A stretch of DNA of 64,000 nucleotides from Piscinibacter sp. HJYY11 (GTDB taxonomy: Bacteria; Pseudomonadota; Gammaproteobacteria; Burkholderiales; Burkholderiaceae_C), in assembly GCF_016735515.1 (NCBI RefSeq), contig NZ_JAERQZ010000001.1:2158746-2222745 (forward strand). Direction: 5' to 3'. A program made the position numbers and the translations under genes. The notes below the pieces were generated by a model. That model searched no databases. It worked only from the letters and a program-made list of their open reading frames with translations, and was not told the DNA's origin. Position 1 is the first letter of the stretch. Each line of letters opens with the position of its first letter. This document shows positions 26,481 to 36,306 of this stretch, one piece after another.

Positions 26481-28706
26481 TTACTGCACGATGCCGTCGA
26501 TCACCTTCGGCTTGGAGCTGGCCGGGGTCGGCTCGGTGCCGATGGTGGTCATCGGATTCACGTCGTAGGCCGTCGAGTCGGGCAACGTGAGCGCCGATGC
26601 CGCCACGAGCGACGGTGCACTGGCGCACGAGGTGCGGCCCAGGCGCAGCTCGCGCTGGAGGTACTTCACATGGAAGTGCGTGGCGCCGTCAGACACCGAC
26701 GAGCCGTCGCGGATGTCGAAGGCCGGCACCCAGCGGGTGTTGGGGCCGCAGCTCACCGGCTGGTTGGTGTCGGGGTTCACGCAGCTGCCCGGAATGCCTT
26801 GCAGCTGGCCGAAGCCGTTGTACTGCAGCTGCACGGTGTTGCCGTCGAACTTGCTCACGTCGGGCGCGCTGATGTTGGCCGGGCTCGCGGTCGCGGTGAA
26901 GCTCAGGGGCTTCGGCGGATCGATGGTCACGCCTTGCGCGCCGAAGTAGCGGTTCCACTGGTTCGGGCCGGTCTCCCACTGGTAGATCACCGAGGCCTGG
27001 TCGACGAGGTGCGGGCAGTAGTAGGCACCGGAGGGGTTGGCCTGGCCGTTCATGTCGCAGCGGATGGACGGCAGGTCGCTGTCGGTCACCATCGAGCCGC
27101 TGGTGAGGCCCCACTGGTTCATGCCCATGCTGTCCTTGCTGGCGCCCGAGGCGTCGGCGTTGCCGCCACCGTCGGAGAGCATGCCGTTCTGCCAGGTGTA
27201 GGCGTAGCGCGTGCCGGTCGGCCCCCAGGAGCTGGCGTCCTGGTATGGCGAGGCCGCGAGGTTGCCGCCGCTCACGAGGTTGGTGCCGGTCTTCGGGCAC
27301 ATGCCGATGCAGTTGAGCGCCACGTCGGGTGCGCCCGGCTCCACGACTTCACGGGTGCGGTAGGTCACCGCGTCGGTGGCCGAGAAGTTGCCGCTGGCCG
27401 GCACGAGCACCGAGCCGTTGCCGCCGCCCGAGGGGAAGAAGATGGGCAGCGCGCGGATCTGCAAGGCCGAGAGCGTGGCGGCGTTCAGGGCGACCGGCGT
27501 GCCGAAGGCGGTGCTGGAGCACGGGTTGCCCGGCGAGCACTGCTGGTAGCCGATCGCGTTGAGGGCGCTGCCGTCCCACTGCAGCTCGTAGTTGGTGTTG
27601 GCCGGGCCGCTGCCGATGGCGTTGGGCGACCAGTACATCATCGAGACGTTCTTGAAGGCACCGAGCGTCGACTGGTGCTTGGTCAGCTTCCACAGCTTGC
27701 CGCCGCGGCGCACGACCGTGAGCGGCACGTCGACCCCCGACACCTGGCGCGTGAGCGTGCCCGAGCTGCCGACGGTGGCGAGCGCCGAGTCGGGCAGCCA
27801 CAGGCCCCAGAAGCTCCAGAAGCCGTAGTAGGTGTTGGCACCCGACACGTACTTCACCGCGAAGCCGGGGTTGCTCACGTCGAGGCGCGAGCCGTCGTCG
27901 TTGTAGACGCCGTAGCTCCAGGTCGAGGTGTCGGCCAGCGTGCGGTCGCGGGCGAAGCATTCGTCGCTGCCGGCGCCATCGTTGCGGTGGAAGGTGGTGC
28001 CGTCGAAGGCGAAGGTGTAGGCGTAGGGGTTGCCGCCCTCGGTGCCCTGCACGCGGCCCATGCCGCTGTCGGTGGTGGGGTTCGACTGCAGCTTGAGGTT
28101 GGTCTCCGACGAACCGCCGCCACCGCCCGACTCGGCCTGGTAGAAGCTCAGGCCGGTGCCGTCGGACTTCAGCGTGCCGCGGAACATGCAGGTGGAGAGG
28201 CCATCGGGCGTGCCGCAGAAGTACATGCGGAAGAGGCCGTTGGGGTTGCTGTCCGACTTGCCTTCGGTGGCCACGATGTAGACGTAGATCGTCATCTTCT
28301 CGGGGCCGTTGCCGTGGTCTTCTTCCTCGTGCAGCCAGATCTTGACCGTGAGCGGGTCGGCATTCGTGGCCTGCTCGGAGACGACGGTGGCCGACATGTA
28401 GTCGGTCGCGTTCGACGCACCGGCGTTGGTGCTGGTGGACTTGGCAGCGTCGCCGCGGCCGGCGCACTTGTTCTGGTCGACCAGCGCGACGTAGGCGCCC
28501 TGGTTCACCATCGCGTCGGGGCGCAGGCTGCTCATGATGCACATGATCATGTTGACCGTGCTGATGCGGTCGCCCACGCGGTCTTGCACCCAGGTGTTCT
28601 GCGGGTCGGTGACGTAGGCGCCCGAGGTGGGCGTGGTGGCCATGGCGGGCGCGGCCAGCGCGCCGGCGAGCGCCAGCGCGACGCCCAGTCGAGACAAGAG
28701 TTTCAT
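26481..28706 (-). CDS. Large secreted protein of unknown function
   Basis: I do not recognise this 741-aa protein. It has a clear Sec signal peptide (MKLLSRLGVALALAGALAAP, cut near ALA-23/TTP). The mature part is rich in Gly, Ser, Asn, Thr and aromatic residues, with scattered cysteines that may pair (for example CIM, CAG, CGTPDG, CMFRG, CSPGNPC, CIGMCPK, CDMNG, CPH). Such composition suits a beta-rich extracellular or outer-surface protein. Histidine and acidic runs such as HEEEDHGNG could bind metal. It ends 16 bases downstream of a small lipoprotein gene and is very likely co-expressed with it. The start at 28706 is fixed by the signal peptide. Confidence 0.75.
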   Translation of the reverse strand: MKLLSRLGVALALAGALAAPAMATTPTSGAYVTDPQNTWVQDRVGDRISTVNMIMCIMSSLRPDAMVNQGAYVALVDQNKCAGRGDAAKSTSTNAGASNATDYMSATVVSEQATNADPLTVKIWLHEEEDHGNGPEKMTIYVYIVATEGKSDSNPNGLFRMYFCGTPDGLSTCMFRGTLKSDGTGLSFYQAESGGGGGSSETNLKLQSNPTTDSGMGRVQGTEGGNPYAYTFAFDGTTFHRNDGAGSDECFARDRTLADTSTWSYGVYNDDGSRLDVSNPGFAVKYVSGANTYYGFWSFWGLWLPDSALATVGSSGTLTRQVSGVDVPLTVVRRGGKLWKLTKHQSTLGAFKNVSMMYWSPNAIGSGPANTNYELQWDGSALNAIGYQQCSPGNPCSSTAFGTPVALNAATLSALQIRALPIFFPSGGGNGSVLVPASGNFSATDAVTYRTREVVEPGAPDVALNCIGMCPKTGTNLVSGGNLAASPYQDASSWGPTGTRYAYTWQNGMLSDGGGNADASGASKDSMGMNQWGLTSGSMVTDSDLPSIRCDMNGQANPSGAYYCPHLVDQASVIYQWETGPNQWNRYFGAQGVTIDPPKPLSFTATASPANISAPDVSKFDGNTVQLQYNGFGQLQGIPGSCVNPDTNQPVSCGPNTRWVPAFDIRDGSSVSDGATHFHVKYLQRELRLGRTSCASAPSLVAASALTLPDSTAYDVNPMTTIGTEPTPASSKPKVIDGIVQ

Positions 28707-29487: not shown

Positions 29488-30336
29488 ATGGCGCGTTCCG
29501 ACTCTTCATTTCCCTCCGACACCGGGCTGCCCGTCGGCCAGGACCTGCTCGACAACTCCTACGTCCTGGGCCACCACGGTTTCATCTACACCAGCGTGCA
29601 CCTCGCGAGTGGTTCCACCGTGCGCCACCCGGCCGTGGTGCTGCTGAGCATGGACGGCCGCCCGTTCCGCATCCCCATGCCCGACGGCCGCGTGCTCGAG
29701 GCCCCGGCCGCGATGGTGCCGCCCCGCGTAGAGCGCGGCCTCGACGCCGTCGGCGTCCCGCTGCTGAGCCTCAACATCATGCCGGCGCACGGGGCGTACC
29801 ACGTGTTCCGCGCGATGCAGCACGGCGGTGTGCGCGAGCTCGACCGCCATTTGTTCAACGACCTCAACGACAGCTTCGCCGCGCTGGTGGAGGGCCGTGC
29901 CTCCATCGTCGAGGCCGAGCTGGTCTTCTCGCGTGTGGTCACCGAGGTGCAGCGTGTGCTGCCGCCCGCGCCGGCACCCGACCCGCGCGCGCTCGCGCTC
30001 ATCCGCATGCTCGACGCCCACCCCGAGCTCAGCCTGGACGCGCTCGCGCGCAAGCTCGGCTATTCGCACCAGGTGATGTCGCGCATGTTCTCGTCGGCGG
30101 TCGGCATGTCGCTGCGCGACTACCAGAACTGGCTCAAGCAACGCCGCGTGTACGACGTGCTCTACACCCGCCGCTCGCTCACGCAGGTGGCCTACATCGC
30201 GGGCTTTGCCGATTCACCGCAGTTCACGCGCACCTTCCAGCGCTGGTACGGCGTGACGCCGTCGACGGCACGCGACCCGAAGAACGTGCGCGTGTTCATC
30301 CACGGCGGCAGCAACCAGCGGGCTGCGCCGACCTGA
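29488..30336 (+). CDS. AraC-family regulator, paralog A
   Basis: This 282-aa transcription regulator carries the two-helix AraC DNA-binding module in its C-terminal third: LSLDALARKLGYSHQVMSRM, then LTQVAYIAGFADSPQFTRTF and the closing RWYGVTP. The N-terminal ~170 residues (VLGHHGFIYTSVHLASGS) form a sensor part not typical of sugar regulators. The same layout and phrases recur in the 33496-34317 protein, so the two are paralogs, each near a PETase-family gene. This one is 7 bases from the convergent chaperone-like gene. ATG at 29488 is chosen as the start of the conserved part; a ribosome-binding site is not obvious. Confidence 0.88.
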   Translation: MARSDSSFPSDTGLPVGQDLLDNSYVLGHHGFIYTSVHLASGSTVRHPAVVLLSMDGRPFRIPMPDGRVLEAPAAMVPPRVERGLDAVGVPLLSLNIMPAHGAYHVFRAMQHGGVRELDRHLFNDLNDSFAALVEGRASIVEAELVFSRVVTEVQRVLPPAPAPDPRALALIRMLDAHPELSLDALARKLGYSHQVMSRMFSSAVGMSLRDYQNWLKQRRVYDVLYTRRSLTQVAYIAGFADSPQFTRTFQRWYGVTPSTARDPKNVRVFIHGGSNQRAAPT

Positions 30337-30343
30337 GGAAGCC

Positions 30344-31105
30344 TCAGGACGCGGGCTGCGCCGGCGGCTGCGACGCGAGGGTGCCGTCCGGCTGCGGGAT
30401 CAGTGACTGCTGGTCGGGCGGCAGCTGCGCACGGATGGCGTCGAGCTGCTCCTTCTTCTGCTCGGGCGTGAGCGAAGCGTCCTGCACGATGAACGAGGCC
30501 GTCATCGTGGCGCGCGCATAGGCGTCGTAGGGGCCGAAGAGTGCGCTCGCGGTCGATTCGTCGAAATGGCGGCGGCGGATGCTCTCCATCTGGTCGAAGA
30601 AGGCATTGGCCTCCTGCAGGGTGCGCGGGATGCCCTGGGGCTGCATCTGCGTGGCGATGTCGCGGGTGTAGGCGCGGTAGTCGGTGAAGAGCTTCAGGGC
30701 CTTTTCGGCGTCTTCACGGGGCAGGCCCTGGCGCAGCGTGCGCTCGAGGCGCTGCAGGTCCTGGTCGGAGGGGTTCTCGGGCATCGAGTTCAGCACCGCC
30801 TCGATGGCGGAGCGGGTGTCGCGGTCGATCACGAGGCCGCCGGCAAAGCCCAGCTCGAAGAGGCGCGAGGCGTCGAGGTTGCCGAGGACGGCGTCGGAGA
30901 CCGTCACGGTCTCCTCGCCAGGCCGCGGCGCGCCGCCCGATGCACCGGCCGCGCGTCCTCCCGCCACCGGCGGCGCGCCGGCCACCCCGGCAGCAGGCGC
31001 AGTGGAGACGTCGGCCGCCGGGGTCCAGTTGGCATAGACGATGGCTGCGACCACCAGGACGACACCGATGGTCAGCGCGATGGGAAAGGGCTTGAAGGCA
31101 GGCAT
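30344..31105 (-). CDS. Lipase-chaperone-like membrane-anchored protein
   Basis: The 253-aa protein has one N-terminal membrane helix (residues 8-25), then an Ala/Pro/Gly linker (28-65) and a helical periplasmic part. The phrase [20 protein letters not shown] resembles the start of lipase-specific foldase (LifO/LimK) domains. [20 protein letters not shown] resembles their later 'LFG' block. Known foldases are about 340 aa, so this is a short version. Foldases help a cognate secreted lipase fold in the periplasm. The divergent neighbour is the PETase-like gene (start 31399), which suggests a partnership, but IsPETase itself needs no foldase as far as I know. Family call is moderate; function is inferred. 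Confidence 0.65.
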
Positions 31106-31263
31106 GGGGCCAATGTTGCACGCACATCCAGAAGTTGACATCAGCATTGCCCCGCCCCAGATCGGGGCCAAACCCCGATCACCCTGCCCAAAAGCAAGAT
31201 TTCCCAGGAGAAGCGGCACCAGACGCGCGCGTAGCACAAAAGGCGGGTCGCTGGATTGATGGA

Positions 31264-31278
31264 ATGCGTACATCGCAT
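31264..31278. promoter_or_regulatory. Inverted repeat in PETase-like gene leader
   Basis: ATGCG-TACAT-CGCAT is a perfect 5-bp inverted repeat about 120 bases before the hydrolase start codon. It directly follows TTGATGGAA, a nonamer that also occurs upstream of the second hydrolase gene (34498-34506). It is a possible regulator-binding site in the divergent intergenic region 31106-31398. Confidence 0.35.
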
Positions 31279-31398
31279 GTTCGGATGAAAAAGGACGGAC
31301 GTGCACCCAAGATGCGATCAGCCCGGCGTCACAAGTCGGCCGTGCCCTTGGGGCCGCCATGCAGCGGCCACCCCGGTTCCACCTACAAAGGAGACAAC

Positions 31399-32274
31399 AT
31401 GCAATTCAAAGCACGCACCTTGCGTCTGCTGCAAGCCGCCGCCCTGGGCGGCCTGATGGCCGTCTCGGCCGCCGCCACCGCACAGACCAACCCCTATGCC
31501 CGCGGCCCGAACCCGACCGATTCCCTGCTGGAAGCGAGCCGCGGCCCGTTCTCGATCAGCTCGTTCACCGTGAGCCGCCCGAGCGGCTACGGCGCCGGCA
31601 CCGTCTACTACCCGACCAACGCCGGCGGCACCGTGGGCGCCATCGCCATCGTGCCGGGCTACACCGCACGCCAGTCGAGCATCAACTGGTGGGGCCCGCG
31701 CCTGGCCTCACACGGCTTCGTGGTCATCACCATCGACACCAACTCCACGCTCGACCAGCCGTCGAGCCGCTCGCGCCAGCAGATGGCCGCGCTGAGCCAG
31801 GTCGTGTCGCTCAGCCGCACCAGCACCAGCCCGATCTACAACAAGGTCGACGCGTCGCGCCTGGGCGTGATGGGCTGGTCGATGGGTGGCGGCGGCTCGC
31901 TGATCTCTGCACGCGACAACCCCTCCATCAAGGCCGCGGCACCGCAAGCCCCCTGGAACACCTCGAGCAACTTCTCCTCGATGACCGTGCCGACGCTGAT
32001 CTTCGCGTGCGAGAACGACAGCATCGCGTCGACCAGCTCGCACGCATCGCCGATGTACAACAGCATGCGGCTCAACCCACGCCAGTACTTCGAGATCAAC
32101 AACGGCTCGCACTCGTGCGCGAACAGCGGCAACAGCAACCAGGCGCTCATCGGCAAGCGCGGCGTGGCCTGGATGAAGCGCTTCATGGACAACGACACGC
32201 GCTACACCTCGTTCGCCTGCTCGAACCCGAACACGTTCTCCGTGTCGGAGTTCCGCACCGCGAACTGCAGCTGA
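31399..32274 (+). CDS. PET hydrolase (PETase-like), secreted
   Basis: This 291-aa secreted alpha/beta hydrolase is almost colinear with Ideonella sakaiensis PETase (290 aa). From memory, most positions are identical, including [14 protein letters not shown] after the signal peptide. Catalytic Ser161 (GWSMGG), Asp207 and His238 are present, as are Trp160, Trp186 and Ser239, the small residue that opens the PETase cleft. Cys204-Cys240 and Cys274-Cys290 match the two disulfides. Differences at the mobile-tryptophan pocket are His215 and Met219 (Ser214 and Ile218 in IsPETase). AAAGGAGA precedes the ATG. It is likely the enzyme reported as RgPETase from Rhizobacter gummiphilus, a recollection I could not check. 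Confidence 0.93.
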
Positions 32275-32309
32275 GGACCCGAGCCCTCCGGGGCGTGATG
32301 CCTTGACGG

Positions 32310-32340
32310 CCGCGACTCGCAAGGGTCGCGGTCCTTTTGC
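32310..32340 (+). terminator. Terminator after PETase-like gene 1
   Basis: CCGCGAC (32310-32316) pairs with GTCGCGG (32325-32331), followed by TCCTTTTGCGTTT. It lies 35 bases after the hydrolase stop and just before the convergent pyrC end. Confidence 0.7.
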
Positions 32341-32367
32341 GTTTCACGCGCCTGGCGCGCGGTCAGG

Positions 32368-33429
32368 TCAGGCCTGCTTCCAGGCGAGCGTTTCACCGCC
32401 GCGCAAGGGCTTGAGCTGGGCATCGCCGAAGGGCAAGGCCTCGGGCAAGGTCCAGGTCTCCTTCTTCAAGGTGACCGTGCCGCTGTTGCGAGGCAGGCCG
32501 TAGAAAGCCGGGCCATTGAAGCTCGCGAAGGCTTCCAGCTTGTCGAGGGCGCCTGCGGCATCGAAGGCTTCGGCATAGAGCTCGAGTGCACTCAGCGCCG
32601 TGTAGCAGCCGGCACAGCCGGTCGCGTGCTCCTTCAGGTGCGCCGGGTGCGGCGCGCTGTCGGTGCCGAGGAAGAAGCGGTCGCTGCCCGAGGTGGCGGC
32701 GGCCACGAGCGCGCGGCGGTGCTCTTCGCGCTTCAACACCGGGAGACAGTAATAGTGCGGACGCACACCCCCCAGGAAGATGGCGTTTCGGTTGTAGAGC
32801 AGGTGGTGCGCGGTGATGGTGGCCGCGGTGTGCGGGCCGGCTTCGGGCACGTACTGCGCCGCTTCGCGCGTGGTGATGTGCTCGAACACGATCTTCAACT
32901 CCGGGAAGTCGCGGCGCAGCGGGATGAGCTGCGTGTCGATGAAGGCCTTCTCGCGGTCGAAGAGGTCGATGTCGGGGCTGGTCACTTCGCCGTGCACGAG
33001 AAGCTTCAGGCCTTCACGCTGCATCGCCTCGAGCGTGGCGTAGGTCTTTCTGATGTCGGTGACGCCGGCATCGCTGTTGGTGGTGGCACCGGCGGGGTAG
33101 AGCTTGAGGGCGACCACGTCGGCGTCCTTGGCGCGGCGGATCTCGTCGGGCGGCAGGTTGTCGGTGAGGTAGAGCGTCATCAGCGGCTCGAAGCCCAGGC
33201 CCTGTTCTTTCAGCGAGGCAGGCACCGCGGCCAGGATGCGCTCGCGATAGGCCACCGCCTGCGCCGCGGTGGTCACCGGCGGCTTGAGGTTGGGCATGAT
33301 GATCGCGCGGCCGAACTGGCGCGCGGTGTCCGGCACGACCGCCTGGAGGGCGGCGCCGTCGCGCACGTGGAGGTGCCAGTCGTCGGGCCGGGTGAGGGTG
33401 ATCGAGAGGGAGGGTGCTGCGGAAGTCAT
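32368..33429 (-). CDS. pyrC: Dihydroorotase, class II
   Basis: This pyrimidine biosynthesis enzyme cyclises carbamoyl aspartate to dihydroorotate. The 353-aa protein is the E. coli-type dihydroorotase. It has metal ligands His in [10 protein letters not shown] near the N-terminus, the carboxylated lysine in the [19 protein letters not shown] segment, His in LLVHGEV and VFEHITT, and Asp in FLGTDSAPH. Its housekeeping role contrasts with the neighbours. It sits between the two regulator/hydrolase modules and faces the first hydrolase gene. The start at 33429 gives [20 protein letters not shown], with extra residues before the usual start. Confidence 0.96.
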
Positions 33430-33495
33430 GCGGAATTGTCACCCACCCCACCGTCGTCGGCCTCGGGGCGCCGCCGCTCGAGCTGAGGGCACGGC

Positions 33496-34317
33496 ATGCG
33501 CACTGCGTCCTTCTCCATTCCGCATGCCGCCGCGCTCCGGCCGCGCGAGACCGCCTATGTGCTCGGCCACGACGGCTTCATCTACGCCGGACACGACCTC
33601 TCCAGCGGCGTGACCTCGCGCCACTCGGCCGCCATCCTCCTCAGCGCCGACCACCGTGCGGTGACGGTCACCTCGCCCGACGGCACGCGCTTCAGCGGGC
33701 CGGCGCTGCTCGTGCCACCGCTCGTGCCCCGCCGGCTCGACGCTGCCGGCGTGGCACTGCTGAGCATCAACGTGATGCCGTCGCACCGCGCTTTCCACGT
33801 CTTTGCTGCACGGCAGCACGCCGGCGTGCAGCCACTCCACCGCGAGCTCTACTTCGCGTGGGACGCAGATCTGCGGGGACTGGTGAAGGGCGAACTCGAC
33901 CTGGACACTGCCGGCACGCTCTTCGAGCACCTGGTCGACCTCGCCTGCTCGCAACTGCCCCCGGCGCCCCCGCAGGACCCTGCGGCGGGCTTGCTGATCC
34001 AGCTGCTCGACGACAACCCCTGCTGCACGATCGACGAACTCGCCCGCAAGCTGGGGCGGCCACCGCGGGCGGTGTCGCGGCTGTTCCCGCTGGCGCTGGG
34101 CATGTCGGCGCGCGACTACCAGGGCTGGCTCCGGATGCGTCGCATGATGGAGCTGATGGACAGCGCGCGCTCGCTCACCGACGTCGCACTCGACGCGGGC
34201 TTTTCCGATTCGCCGCAGTTCTCGCGCACCTACCTGCGCTGGTACGGCCGCCCGCCATCGACGACACGCGACCCGTCGCGGGTGCGTGTGCTCGTGCGTC
34301 GGCCGCCCAAGCCTTGA
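33496..34317 (+). CDS. AraC-family regulator, paralog B
   Basis: The 273-aa regulator is paralogous to the 29488-30336 protein. Both share VLGHDGFIYA/VLGHHGFIYT near the N-terminus, a LLSxNxMPxH...FHVF stretch in the middle, and an HTH pair: CTIDELARKLGRPPRAVSRL, then LTDVALDAGFSDSPQFSRTY and RWYGRPPST at the end. It lies upstream of, and in the same direction as, the second PETase-family gene, separated by a probable terminator. It is divergent from pyrC by 66 bases. A role in controlling the neighbouring hydrolase is inferred from position and duplication. Confidence 0.87.
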   Translation: MRTASFSIPHAAALRPRETAYVLGHDGFIYAGHDLSSGVTSRHSAAILLSADHRAVTVTSPDGTRFSGPALLVPPLVPRRLDAAGVALLSINVMPSHRAFHVFAARQHAGVQPLHRELYFAWDADLRGLVKGELDLDTAGTLFEHLVDLACSQLPPAPPQDPAAGLLIQLLDDNPCCTIDELARKLGRPPRAVSRLFPLALGMSARDYQGWLRMRRMMELMDSARSLTDVALDAGFSDSPQFSRTYLRWYGRPPSTTRDPSRVRVLVRRPPKP

Positions 34318-34393
34318 GCGACAAAATCACTCAATTCCGGACGGTGATTCAAAAAACCATCAAGCGTAGACGGAAGCTGGCTTGCGAAGCGGG

Positions 34394-34435
34394 CTTGCAG
34401 ATTTCGGGTATTCCCGCCTGCAAGTGCGGTTTTTC
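34394..34435 (+). terminator. Terminator after AraC paralog B
   Basis: CTTGCAG (34394-34400) pairs with CTGCAAG (34418-34424). An inner CGGG-TATT-CCCG hairpin lies between them, and TGCGGTTTTTC follows. It lies about 77 bases after the regulator stop and 190 before the hydrolase start, implying that the two genes use separate promoters. Confidence 0.6.
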
Positions 34436-34612
34436 ATAGGCAAATCAAGCACCTGGAGCAGCTAACACAAACCGCCAGTTTTGTCTTGATGCCGCGCTTG
34501 ATGGAAACCGTCAATGCAAAAAATGCGTGGCCGTCCAAAAATCAAGGCGTCGCACTTCGAGGCGACGCCCACCCGCCCCCGCAGGCGGAGCATCACAAAA
34601 CCGGAGACATCG

Positions 34613-35482
34613 ATGTTTGGAACTACCCGTTTGATGAAGGCCGCGCTCGCGGTCACCGCCCTCGTGGCCGCCACCGCGGCTTCCGCCCAGACCAACCCCT
34701 TCCAGCGCGGCCCGGCCCCGACCGAAGCGACCCTCGAGGCCACCCGCGGCCCGATGGCCACGAGCCAGTTCACCGTCAGCCGCCCGAGCGGCTACCGTGC
34801 GGGCACGGTGTACTACCCCACCAATGCCGGCGGCACCGTCGGCGGCATCGTGGTGGTGCCGGGCTACACCGCCTACCAGTCCGACATCAACTGGTGGGGG
34901 CCGCGCCTGGCGTCGTGGGGCTTCATCGTCATGACGATCGACACCAACTCCACCCTGGACCAGCCGGCTTCGCGCTCACGCCAGCAGCTCGCCGCGCTCG
35001 ACCAGCTCGCCACGCTGTCGCGCACCAGCAGCAGCCCGATCTACAACAAGCTCGACACCAACCGCATGGGCGTGATGGGCTGGTCGATGGGCGGTGGCGG
35101 CTCGCTGATCTCGACGGAGAACCGCCCGTCGCTCAAGGCCTCGATCCCGTTCGCGCCCTGGAACAGCACCGAGAACTTCTCGTCGGTGACCGTGCCCACG
35201 CTGATCATCGCCTGCCAGGACGACTCCATCGCGCCGGTCTATTCGCACGCCTCGCCGTTCTACAACAGCATGACGCGCAACCCGAAGCAGTTCCTGGAAG
35301 TGCGCGGCGAAGGCCACTACTGCGCCAACTCCAGCAACAGCGACAAGGACTTCCTGGGCAAGAAGGGCGTGGCGTGGATGAAGCGCTTCATGGACAACGA
35401 CACCCGCTTCACTACCTTCGCCTGCACCAACCAGGAAAGCAGCCTGGACGTGTCGGACTTCCGCACCGCTCGCTGCTCGTGA
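34613..35482 (+). CDS. PETase-family polyester hydrolase 2, secreted
   Basis: This 289-aa paralog of the 31399-32274 enzyme has signal peptide [20 protein letters not shown], cut before QTNPF. Catalytic Ser158, Asp204 and His235 and the disulfide pairs Cys201-Cys237 and Cys271-Cys288 are all present, so it is a type II PETase-like protein. Positions that set IsPETase apart are changed. Tyr236 replaces Ser238, and His212/Phe216 replace Ser214/Ile218, the combination found in ordinary cutinase-like relatives where the active-site tryptophan (Trp183) is held rigid. It should still cleave polyesters but with a narrower cleft. CGGAGA precedes ATG 34613. The upstream intergenic region holds a terminator and the shared TTGATGGAA motif. 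Confidence 0.9.
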
Positions 35483-35520
35483 TGGGCTGAGCCACCTTGC
35501 GGCGCCAGTCGCCGCAACGA

Positions 35521-35553
35521 AAAAGGGCGCCACACCGTGGCGCCCTTTTTCTT
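35521..35553. terminator. Bidirectional terminator
   Basis: GGGCGCCAC (35526-35534) and GTGGCGCCC (35538-35546) form a 9-bp stem with a 3-base loop, preceded by AAAAA and followed by TTTTTCTTT. It ends transcription of hydrolase gene 2 on the plus strand and of the amino acid transporter operon on the minus strand. Confidence 0.92.
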
Positions 35554-35571
35554 TGGCCGGAGGCCTTTGGC

Positions 35572-36306
35572 TCAGTGCTGGAGGATCTTCGAGAGGAAGT
35601 CCTTGGCCCGCGGCGAGCGCGCCTCGGGGTTGCCGAAGAAGTCGGCCTTGGCGCAGTCTTCGACGATCTTGCCGGCGTCCATGAAGATCACGCGGTGGCT
35701 CACCTTCTTGGCGAAGCCCATTTCGTGCGTCACGCACATCATGGTCATGCCTTCGTGCGCGAGCTGCACCATCACGTCGAGCACCTCGCCCACCATCTCG
35801 GGGTCGAGCGCCGAAGTCGGCTCGTCGAAGAGCATCACGATCGGGTCCATGCTCAGCGCGCGCGCGATGGCCACACGCTGCTGCTGGCCGCCGGAGAGCT
35901 GGCCGGGGAACTTGTCCTTGTGCGCCATCAGGCCCACGCGGTCGAGCATCTTGAGGCCGCGGGTCTTGGCTTCGTCGGCACTGCGGCCCAGCACCTTGAT
36001 CTGCGCCAGGGTGAGGTTCTCCGTCACGCTCAGGTGGGGGAAGAGCTCGAAGTGCTGGAACACCATGCCCACGCGTGAGCGCAGCTTGGGCAGGTTGGTC
36101 TTGGGGTCGGAGATGGAGATGCCGTCGACCACGATGTCGCCCTTCTGGAAGGGCTCGAGCGCGTTGACGGTCTTGATGAGGGTCGACTTGCCAGAGCCCG
36201 ACGGGCCGCAGACCACGACCACTTCACCCTTCTGGATGCTGGTGGTGCAGTCGGTCAGCACCTGGAAGGAGCCGTACCACTTGGAGACGTTCTTGATGTC
36301 GATCAT
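35572..36306 (-). CDS. gltL: Glutamate/aspartate ABC transporter ATPase
   Basis: This 244-aa ATP-binding subunit of a polar amino acid importer has Walker [11 protein letters not shown]-loop, signature [15 protein letters not shown] and Walker [13 protein letters not shown]. Sequence such as [20 protein letters not shown] closely follows E. coli GltL. It is the last gene of an operon with two permeases (gap 12 bases) and a binding protein, and the next genes encode a second binding protein and aspartase. Aspartate/glutamate specificity is therefore well supported by context. Confidence 0.9.

Follow-up and report, generated by a model that had tools for sequence, protein, structure and literature searches.

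A putative chromosomal polyester-hydrolase locus of repeated three-gene cassettes around pyrC in Piscinibacter sp. HJYY11

The closest described systems to the locus considered here are IsPETase of Ideonella sakaiensis; the lipase-specific foldases (Lif), which carry the motif RxxFDY(F/C)LSALGE; and the AraC-family activators ToxT and Rns, which bind fatty acids according to the titles of their structure entries. Our literature searches, which are weak because subscription papers lay mostly outside them, returned no regulator of PETase genes, no account of the origin of IsPETase, no paper joining PETase and 'lipase chaperone', and no mention of IS1071 among the matches listed on I. sakaiensis, PETase and horizontal gene transfer. 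Here, we analyzed a 64,000-nucleotide stretch of the genome of the soil bacterium Piscinibacter sp. HJYY11 (the window; contig NZ_JAERQZ010000001.1), in which two PETase-family genes, each with an AraC-type regulator, lie around pyrC. As judged from comparison with related loci, it shows a cassette that was duplicated repeatedly with joint divergence of its parts, the absence of a second foldase-like gene, and a box (TANCACAAA) present only at regulator-linked PETases. Taken as a whole, it is probably best explained as a polyester-hydrolase locus of the chromosome in which a three-gene cassette is repeated around pyrC.

Repeated cassettes around pyrC

An original prediction, made from the window alone, had described two paralogous AraC-type regulators (R1 and R2), a PETase-family enzyme near each (P1 and P2), a chaperone-like gene with the first set and pyrC between the sets. 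All were confirmed by profile matches (Table 1), and pyrC has one copy in this genome. The prediction viewed the locus as a duplicated regulator-plus-enzyme unit. The repetition was borne out, but comparison with relatives showed that the repeated unit is larger and consists of three genes: regulator, short lipase-chaperone-like gene and PETase. Synteny, proposed as a check, supported the arrangement, since the same cassette order around pyrC was found in genomes of the same genus. Three of these (G212, G251 and G256) have the order R1-chaperone-P1-pyrC-R2-chaperone-P2-ABC (ATP-binding cassette transporter) genes, with a chaperone in both sets; in HJYY11, the second chaperone is absent and R2 and P2 are separated by 295 bp. 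Compact arrays were detected in two metagenome-assembled genomes (MAGs): pyrC-R-P-R-chaperone in G254, with one more P on a separate contig, ahead of the ABC gene, and pyrC-R-P-R-chaperone-P-P-ABC in G255. G250 has a single set without a chaperone (pyrC-R-P-ABC). An empty site was found in the PETase-free genomes G119, G253 and G257, in which 44-54 bp lie between pyrC and the ABC ATPase gene; in PETase-free G252, a DUF4394 gene occupies this position.

In phylogenetic trees, which hold long branches and whose deep order is unsure, the main-locus regulators (15 sequences) form one clade (support 100/100), and none is more than about 1.3 kb away from a PETase. The 18 PETases also form one clade (100/99), one member of which, G250b, is located elsewhere. 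Set 1 was grouped across HJYY11, G256, G212 and G251 for the regulator (100/100), the enzyme (100/99) and the first chaperone (89/92). When regulators and enzymes were paired by position, the correlation (r 0.83) ranked first of 64 within-genome swaps, and the positional regulator-chaperone and chaperone-enzyme pairings each ranked first of 8. Thus, the duplication of regulator and enzyme with divergence of both parts, and the co-duplication for which trees had been proposed as a check, found support. What did not stand was a single event. The descent of all second sets from one duplication was rejected for the regulators, as those of HJYY11 and G256 do not form one clade with those of G212 and G251 (p-AU, approximately unbiased test, 0.008), and the longer arrays of the two MAGs also speak against it. 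The second-set enzymes, unlike the second-set regulators, do group (97/92). Between species, the second sets are not orthologous, and therefore duplication occurred more than once. Across the four genomes with both sets, regulators of set 1 and set 2 (distances 0.80-0.90) are about twice as diverged as the enzymes (0.36-0.43).

Alternatively, the sets may have been acquired or replaced separately rather than duplicated within the locus, as the split of the second-set regulators and the existence of mobile copies (see below) would allow. However, all main-locus regulators fall into one clade, regulators of this clade occur in these genomes only around the pyrC/ABC genes or on mobile copies, and the parts co-diverged; separate acquisition is a serious but unlikely alternative. 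At the level of sequence, the cassette is read as one that was duplicated repeatedly, its parts diverging together.

Table 1. Features of the PETase locus of HJYY11, in window coordinates
Feature	Coordinates	Strand	Evidence
R1, AraC-type regulator of set 1	29488..30336	+	PF12833 61.7 bits, AlphaFold2 (AF2) model, tree
Short lipase-chaperone-like gene, 253 aa, predicted N-terminal membrane helix	30344..31105	-	PF03280, NF002334, Lif-like fold
Candidate operator of P1, TANCACAAA-N15-TTGA	31232..31259	+	Upstream alignment, 9-mer comparison
P1, secreted PETase-family enzyme	31399..32274	+	PF12740 424 bits, key residues
pyrC (dihydroorotase), flanked by sets on both sides	32368..33429	-	Amidohydro_1
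R2, AraC-type regulator of set 2	33496..34317	+	PF12833 66.1 bits, trees
R2-P2 gap, 295 bp; site of the second short chaperone gene in G212, G251 and G256	34318..34612		
Candidate operator of P2, TANCACAAA-N14-TTGA	34463..34489	+	Upstream alignment, 9-mer comparison
P2, secreted PETase-family enzyme	34613..35482	+	PF12740 404 bits, key residues
ABC transporter ATPase gene, right edge of insertion, adjoins pyrC in PETase-free relatives	35572..36306	-	PF00005, empty site

The listed open reading frame of the chaperone-like gene extends to 31360, and the start at 31105 is favored by relatives and codon use. The locus is flanked by a gene (26481-28706, minus strand) for a 741-aa protein whose start resembles a signal peptide and which matches no Pfam family; its counterparts at the equivalent position in G212 and G256 are ~89-90% identical.

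The regulators and a candidate operator

R1 and R2 are 48% identical by global alignment (50% by genome search). The next four full-length paralogs in the HJYY11 genome reach 27-31% identity, and the remaining matches, with identity of up to 39%, span little beyond the helix-turn-helix (HTH) part. PF12833 scores above cut-off in both proteins, consistent with the C-terminal double HTH of the AraC/XylS family. The sensor domain, previously regarded as unassignable, is predicted to be a beta barrel of the AraC kind: the AF2 model of R1 (predicted local distance difference test score, pLDDT, 89.7) consists of an N-terminal barrel, helices and two HTH motifs, with pLDDT >90 across residues 22-97. 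Its best full-length fold matches were ToxT and Rns (10-12% identity, template modeling (TM) score ~0.4-0.5). This likeness points weakly to fatty acids as ligands of R1 and R2, and they are only a lead because few full-length AraC structures exist.

Regulator and PETase (E ≤ 1e-30 each) were jointly present in 7 and jointly absent in 4 of 11 same-genus genomes. Among 250 sampled genomes of the family, we found the regulator (E ≤ 1e-30) in 4 and a PETase (E ≤ 1e-50) in 7; three genomes had both, and four had a PETase without the regulator, which therefore tracks this PETase clade and not the whole family. In G177, a regulator-like gene (36% identity) adjoins a penicillin amidase gene, with no PETase match in the genome. 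In an order-wide sample of 399 genomes, HJYY11 itself was the only one with a PF12740 match at E ≤ 1e-40. We also compared relatives from a protein database (71 for R1, 83 for the chaperone and 109 for P1), excluding entries of the queries themselves and four entries that list no contig: 25 of the 71 regulators had a longest contig equal in size to that of a PETase and 23 to that of a chaperone (jitter controls averaged about 0.7), and equal size suggests the same contig without proving it. A contig scan with both regulators as queries returned one distant locus. Distant regulators (about 27-36% identity) lie beside PETases in three cases and elsewhere away from them, and three PETases (G250b, one near 1160 kb in G250, and one in G218) have a different AraC nearby, 29-33% identical. 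The outcomes named in advance as counting against the prediction, closest regulator relatives apart from hydrolases everywhere or trees with independent origins, did not occur for the close relatives; every one located in a genome lies by a PETase. Near 4.34 Mb of HJYY11 contig 1 (L169, 6161-12714), an AraC paralog (about 30%) is located among four alpha/beta-hydrolase genes (Hydrolase_4, Abhydrolase_1, Abhydrolase_10 and COesterase); its nearest kin in other genomes adjoin PETases.

The upstream regions of 16 PETases were well matched only at TANCACAAA, at a TTGA 14-15 bp further on and at GGAGAC before the start codon. We consider the box together with this TTGA a candidate operator. The 9-mer occurs twice in the window (at 31232 and 34463), once upstream of each PETase, against an expectation of 0.20. 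Across 712 kb of loci, some overlapping, and with duplicates and gene fragments excluded, the box was present upstream of 17/17 regulator-linked PETases and absent within 400 bp of PETases at other loci (0/25); the sole further site is an orphan second-set promoter on a Piscinibacter gummiphilus plasmid. In 15 of the 17, the box is followed by TTGA at a spacing of N14 or N15, and the two mobile copies lack it.

Several observations weigh against an operator. Two or more copies of the 9-mer were also present in 3 of 100 shuffles of the window, and the weight therefore rests on the cross-locus comparison; there, the 17 promoters represent about eight types, are related to one another and do not count as independent cases. 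G250b, a PETase of the same clade, adjoins a different AraC and has no box, and a sigma-70 scan of 30300-35600 found no consensus promoter. The box could instead be a core promoter or be bound by another regulator, with R1 and R2 controlling the chaperone, the ABC transporter or the like: TTGA can belong to a -35 element, and no box was found upstream of the regulator genes at the examined loci. We regard this as rather improbable, since the box is confined to PETases of regulator loci and is missing precisely at the clade member that stands beside another AraC. As an operator, TANCACAAA-N14/15-TTGA would be bound by R1 and R2 near the -35 region of P1 and P2, which they would activate once the N-terminal barrel binds a polyester breakdown product. 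The natural substrate is probably a plant polyester such as cutin, from which the inducer would derive.

The short chaperone and the enzymes

The short chaperone-like protein matches PF03280 with 65 bits (cut-off 25.7), over positions 1-96 of 192 only; its match to the full-length NCBIfam profile NF002334 (positions 8-230 of 336) reaches 83.7 bits versus a cut-off of 285. The structure model has a predicted Lif-like fold. At the 2es4 position of the Lif motif, the alignment keeps R, not FDY, and the gene adjoins PETase-family genes rather than a class I lipase gene. In counts that do not come from an unbiased genome sample, 23 of 24 short chaperones, and none of 30 longer ones, lay beside a PETase. 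We found 84 database relatives of the short form, nearly all of about 240-260 aa. Encoded on the opposite strand, it may act as a membrane-anchored Lif-like foldase that aids folding of the enzyme or its exit from the periplasm.

This role is challenged by 12 of 42 PETases, including P2 of HJYY11, that have no short chaperone nearby, and by the production of IsPETase in E. coli without this chaperone, as described in one report (PMC10546322); the foldase is therefore not strictly needed. It is also conceivable that the gene is a decaying lipase-foldase remnant that travels with PETase genes and has no role for them. The missing C-terminal part of Lif, the poor alignment at the motif and the PETases without a chaperone agree with such decay, but the short forms lie beside PETases across several genera, nearly all of their relatives are of similar length, and the chaperone tree tracks the enzyme tree (best of 8 pairings, r 0.93). 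A remnant thus seems improbable, and we favor a foldase that serves the PETases. Short or partial chaperones were also seen next to a secreted-protein family of ~290-300 aa that has no Pfam match and is hydrolase-like by eye (L163 9413-11443, L164 8762-10430 and L170 8663-9568): its members adjoin an N-terminal-half chaperone in G251, and a C-terminal-half chaperone and an AraC paralog in HJYY11.

P1 and P2, both far above the PF12740 cut-off of 28 bits, are 67% identical and keep the S160, D206 and H237 triad and W185. The S214/I218 pair of IsPETase proper is absent: both have H214, with M218 in P1 and F218 in P2. The HJYY11 genome contains five PETase-family genes above the Pfam cut-off, and only P1 and P2 have this type of regulator nearby; the other three map to contig 1, at 35 kb, 888.5 kb and 889.7 kb. 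The PETases of other loci were rejected as copies of the same regulated unit, as none of the 25 has the box and no main-clade regulator lies near them. The locus near 888 kb (L106, 7479-10501) consists of a short chaperone and a tandem pair of PETase genes, has neither regulator nor box, and is kept in G212, G251, G256 and G255.

The mobile cassette and comparison with known systems

The PETase encoded on a 4023-bp contig of G053 (C74) is identical to PDB IsPETase across 290 residues, and G053 was therefore taken as I. sakaiensis (Pseudideonella in NCBI). The contig reads R1 fragment-chaperone-PETase-pyrC-R2 fragment, R2 being cut by the contig end, and is 98.4% identical to the G212 chromosome over 4016 bp and 99.4% identical to the P. 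gummiphilus plasmid over 3810 bp. Of 17 genomes, 15 have only one pyrC; the exceptions are G251, with a plasmid copy, and I. sakaiensis, whose donor-type and native copies are 94% and 75% identical to that of the window. The native pyrC locus of I. sakaiensis has no PETase. The plasmid piece begins exactly where a repeated 3' segment of ISPps1 (IS91-like) ends, and IS1071-derived sequence lies on both sides of it. The 21 bp that open the I. sakaiensis contig are identical, in reverse complement, to the plasmid sequence immediately beyond the other border. Both mobile copies have a truncated R1, from about residue 167 and 231. The plasmid piece ends a few bases into P2 (L095 12167) and retains the second-set chaperone and an intact second box, leaving an orphan PETase promoter. 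Such comparisons largely establish that the I. sakaiensis PETase is a mobilized set 1 copy from the locus of a Piscinibacter/Rhizobacter-type relative. Vertical inheritance with only apparent transfer, to which the common family (Sphaerotilaceae) would lend itself, is very improbable given the two dissimilar pyrC genes, the PETase-free native pyrC-ABC locus and the near-identity of the DNA to replicons of other genera, with the 21-bp flank shared.

Residues S214, I218, D220 and E274 are common to the I. sakaiensis and plasmid PETases, and the corresponding residues on the chromosomes of G212 and G251 are H, F, N and Q; among the aligned PETases, S214 occurs only in the I. sakaiensis and plasmid copies. 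In a previous report, S214 and I218 are called unique to IsPETase (PMC10080609). Both mobile copies also have a deletion of 13 bp between the box and TTGA. The two closest chromosomal copies, in G212 and G251, have neither S214/I218 nor this deletion. Between I. sakaiensis and G212, non-synonymous and synonymous codon changes numbered 6 and 4 in the PETase versus 2 and 14 in pyrC (Fisher p 0.026), and 3 and 4 in the chaperone; the PETase is therefore not alone in its pattern, and these counts are low. Over 3810 bp, I. sakaiensis and the plasmid show 23 differences, every one of them within PETase codons 74-205, suggesting recombination with another PETase allele there. The differences lie in the span of plasmid L095 8405-9277 versus L103 1351-2223, and pyrC and the chaperone gene are identical.

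A fuller scenario is offered tentatively, as possible but short of probable: a dedicated half-length foldase and an AraC switch would serve the PETase-family enzymes of this lineage, and the PET-degrading enzyme of I. sakaiensis would stem from the capture of one such cassette from a Piscinibacter-type chromosome by an IS91-like element. The mobile lineage would have lost the sensor half of the regulator and 13 bp of the operator and gained S214/I218, so that control would have been loosened and activity on polyethylene terephthalate (PET) improved together. The locus offers a concrete candidate regulator-operator pair for PETase control and a candidate folding helper for an enzyme that is hard to produce. 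Chromosomal H214/F218 with intact control and mobile S214/I218 with altered control form a natural series, through which the recent evolution of plastic degradation can be tested directly.

Among known systems, ToxT and Rns resemble R1 in the predicted barrel and two HTH motifs of these AraC-family activators with a beta-barrel sensor, although identity and TM scores are low. The Lif foldases (LifO/LimK/LipB, PF03280; PDB 2es4 and 9g8u) have a C-terminal part that the short chaperone lacks, and go with class I lipases, whereas the short chaperone goes with PETases. The plasmid of P. gummiphilus SBD 7-3 (NZ_CP136337.1) carries an AraC fragment, chaperone, PETase, pyrC, regulator and second chaperone in the HJYY11-type order; unlike the HJYY11 locus, it is a mobile piece with P2 cut off. 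IsPETase (PDB 6eqd/6qgc) is 81.7% identical to P1 and 69.8% to P2 and shares with them the triad, W159, W185 and both cysteine pairs, differing at positions 214 and 218. Its neighbors, part of R1, the chaperone, pyrC and part of R2, correspond in kind and order to those of HJYY11; in contrast to the latter, however, it lies on a mobilized fragment with a truncated R1 and the shortened operator.

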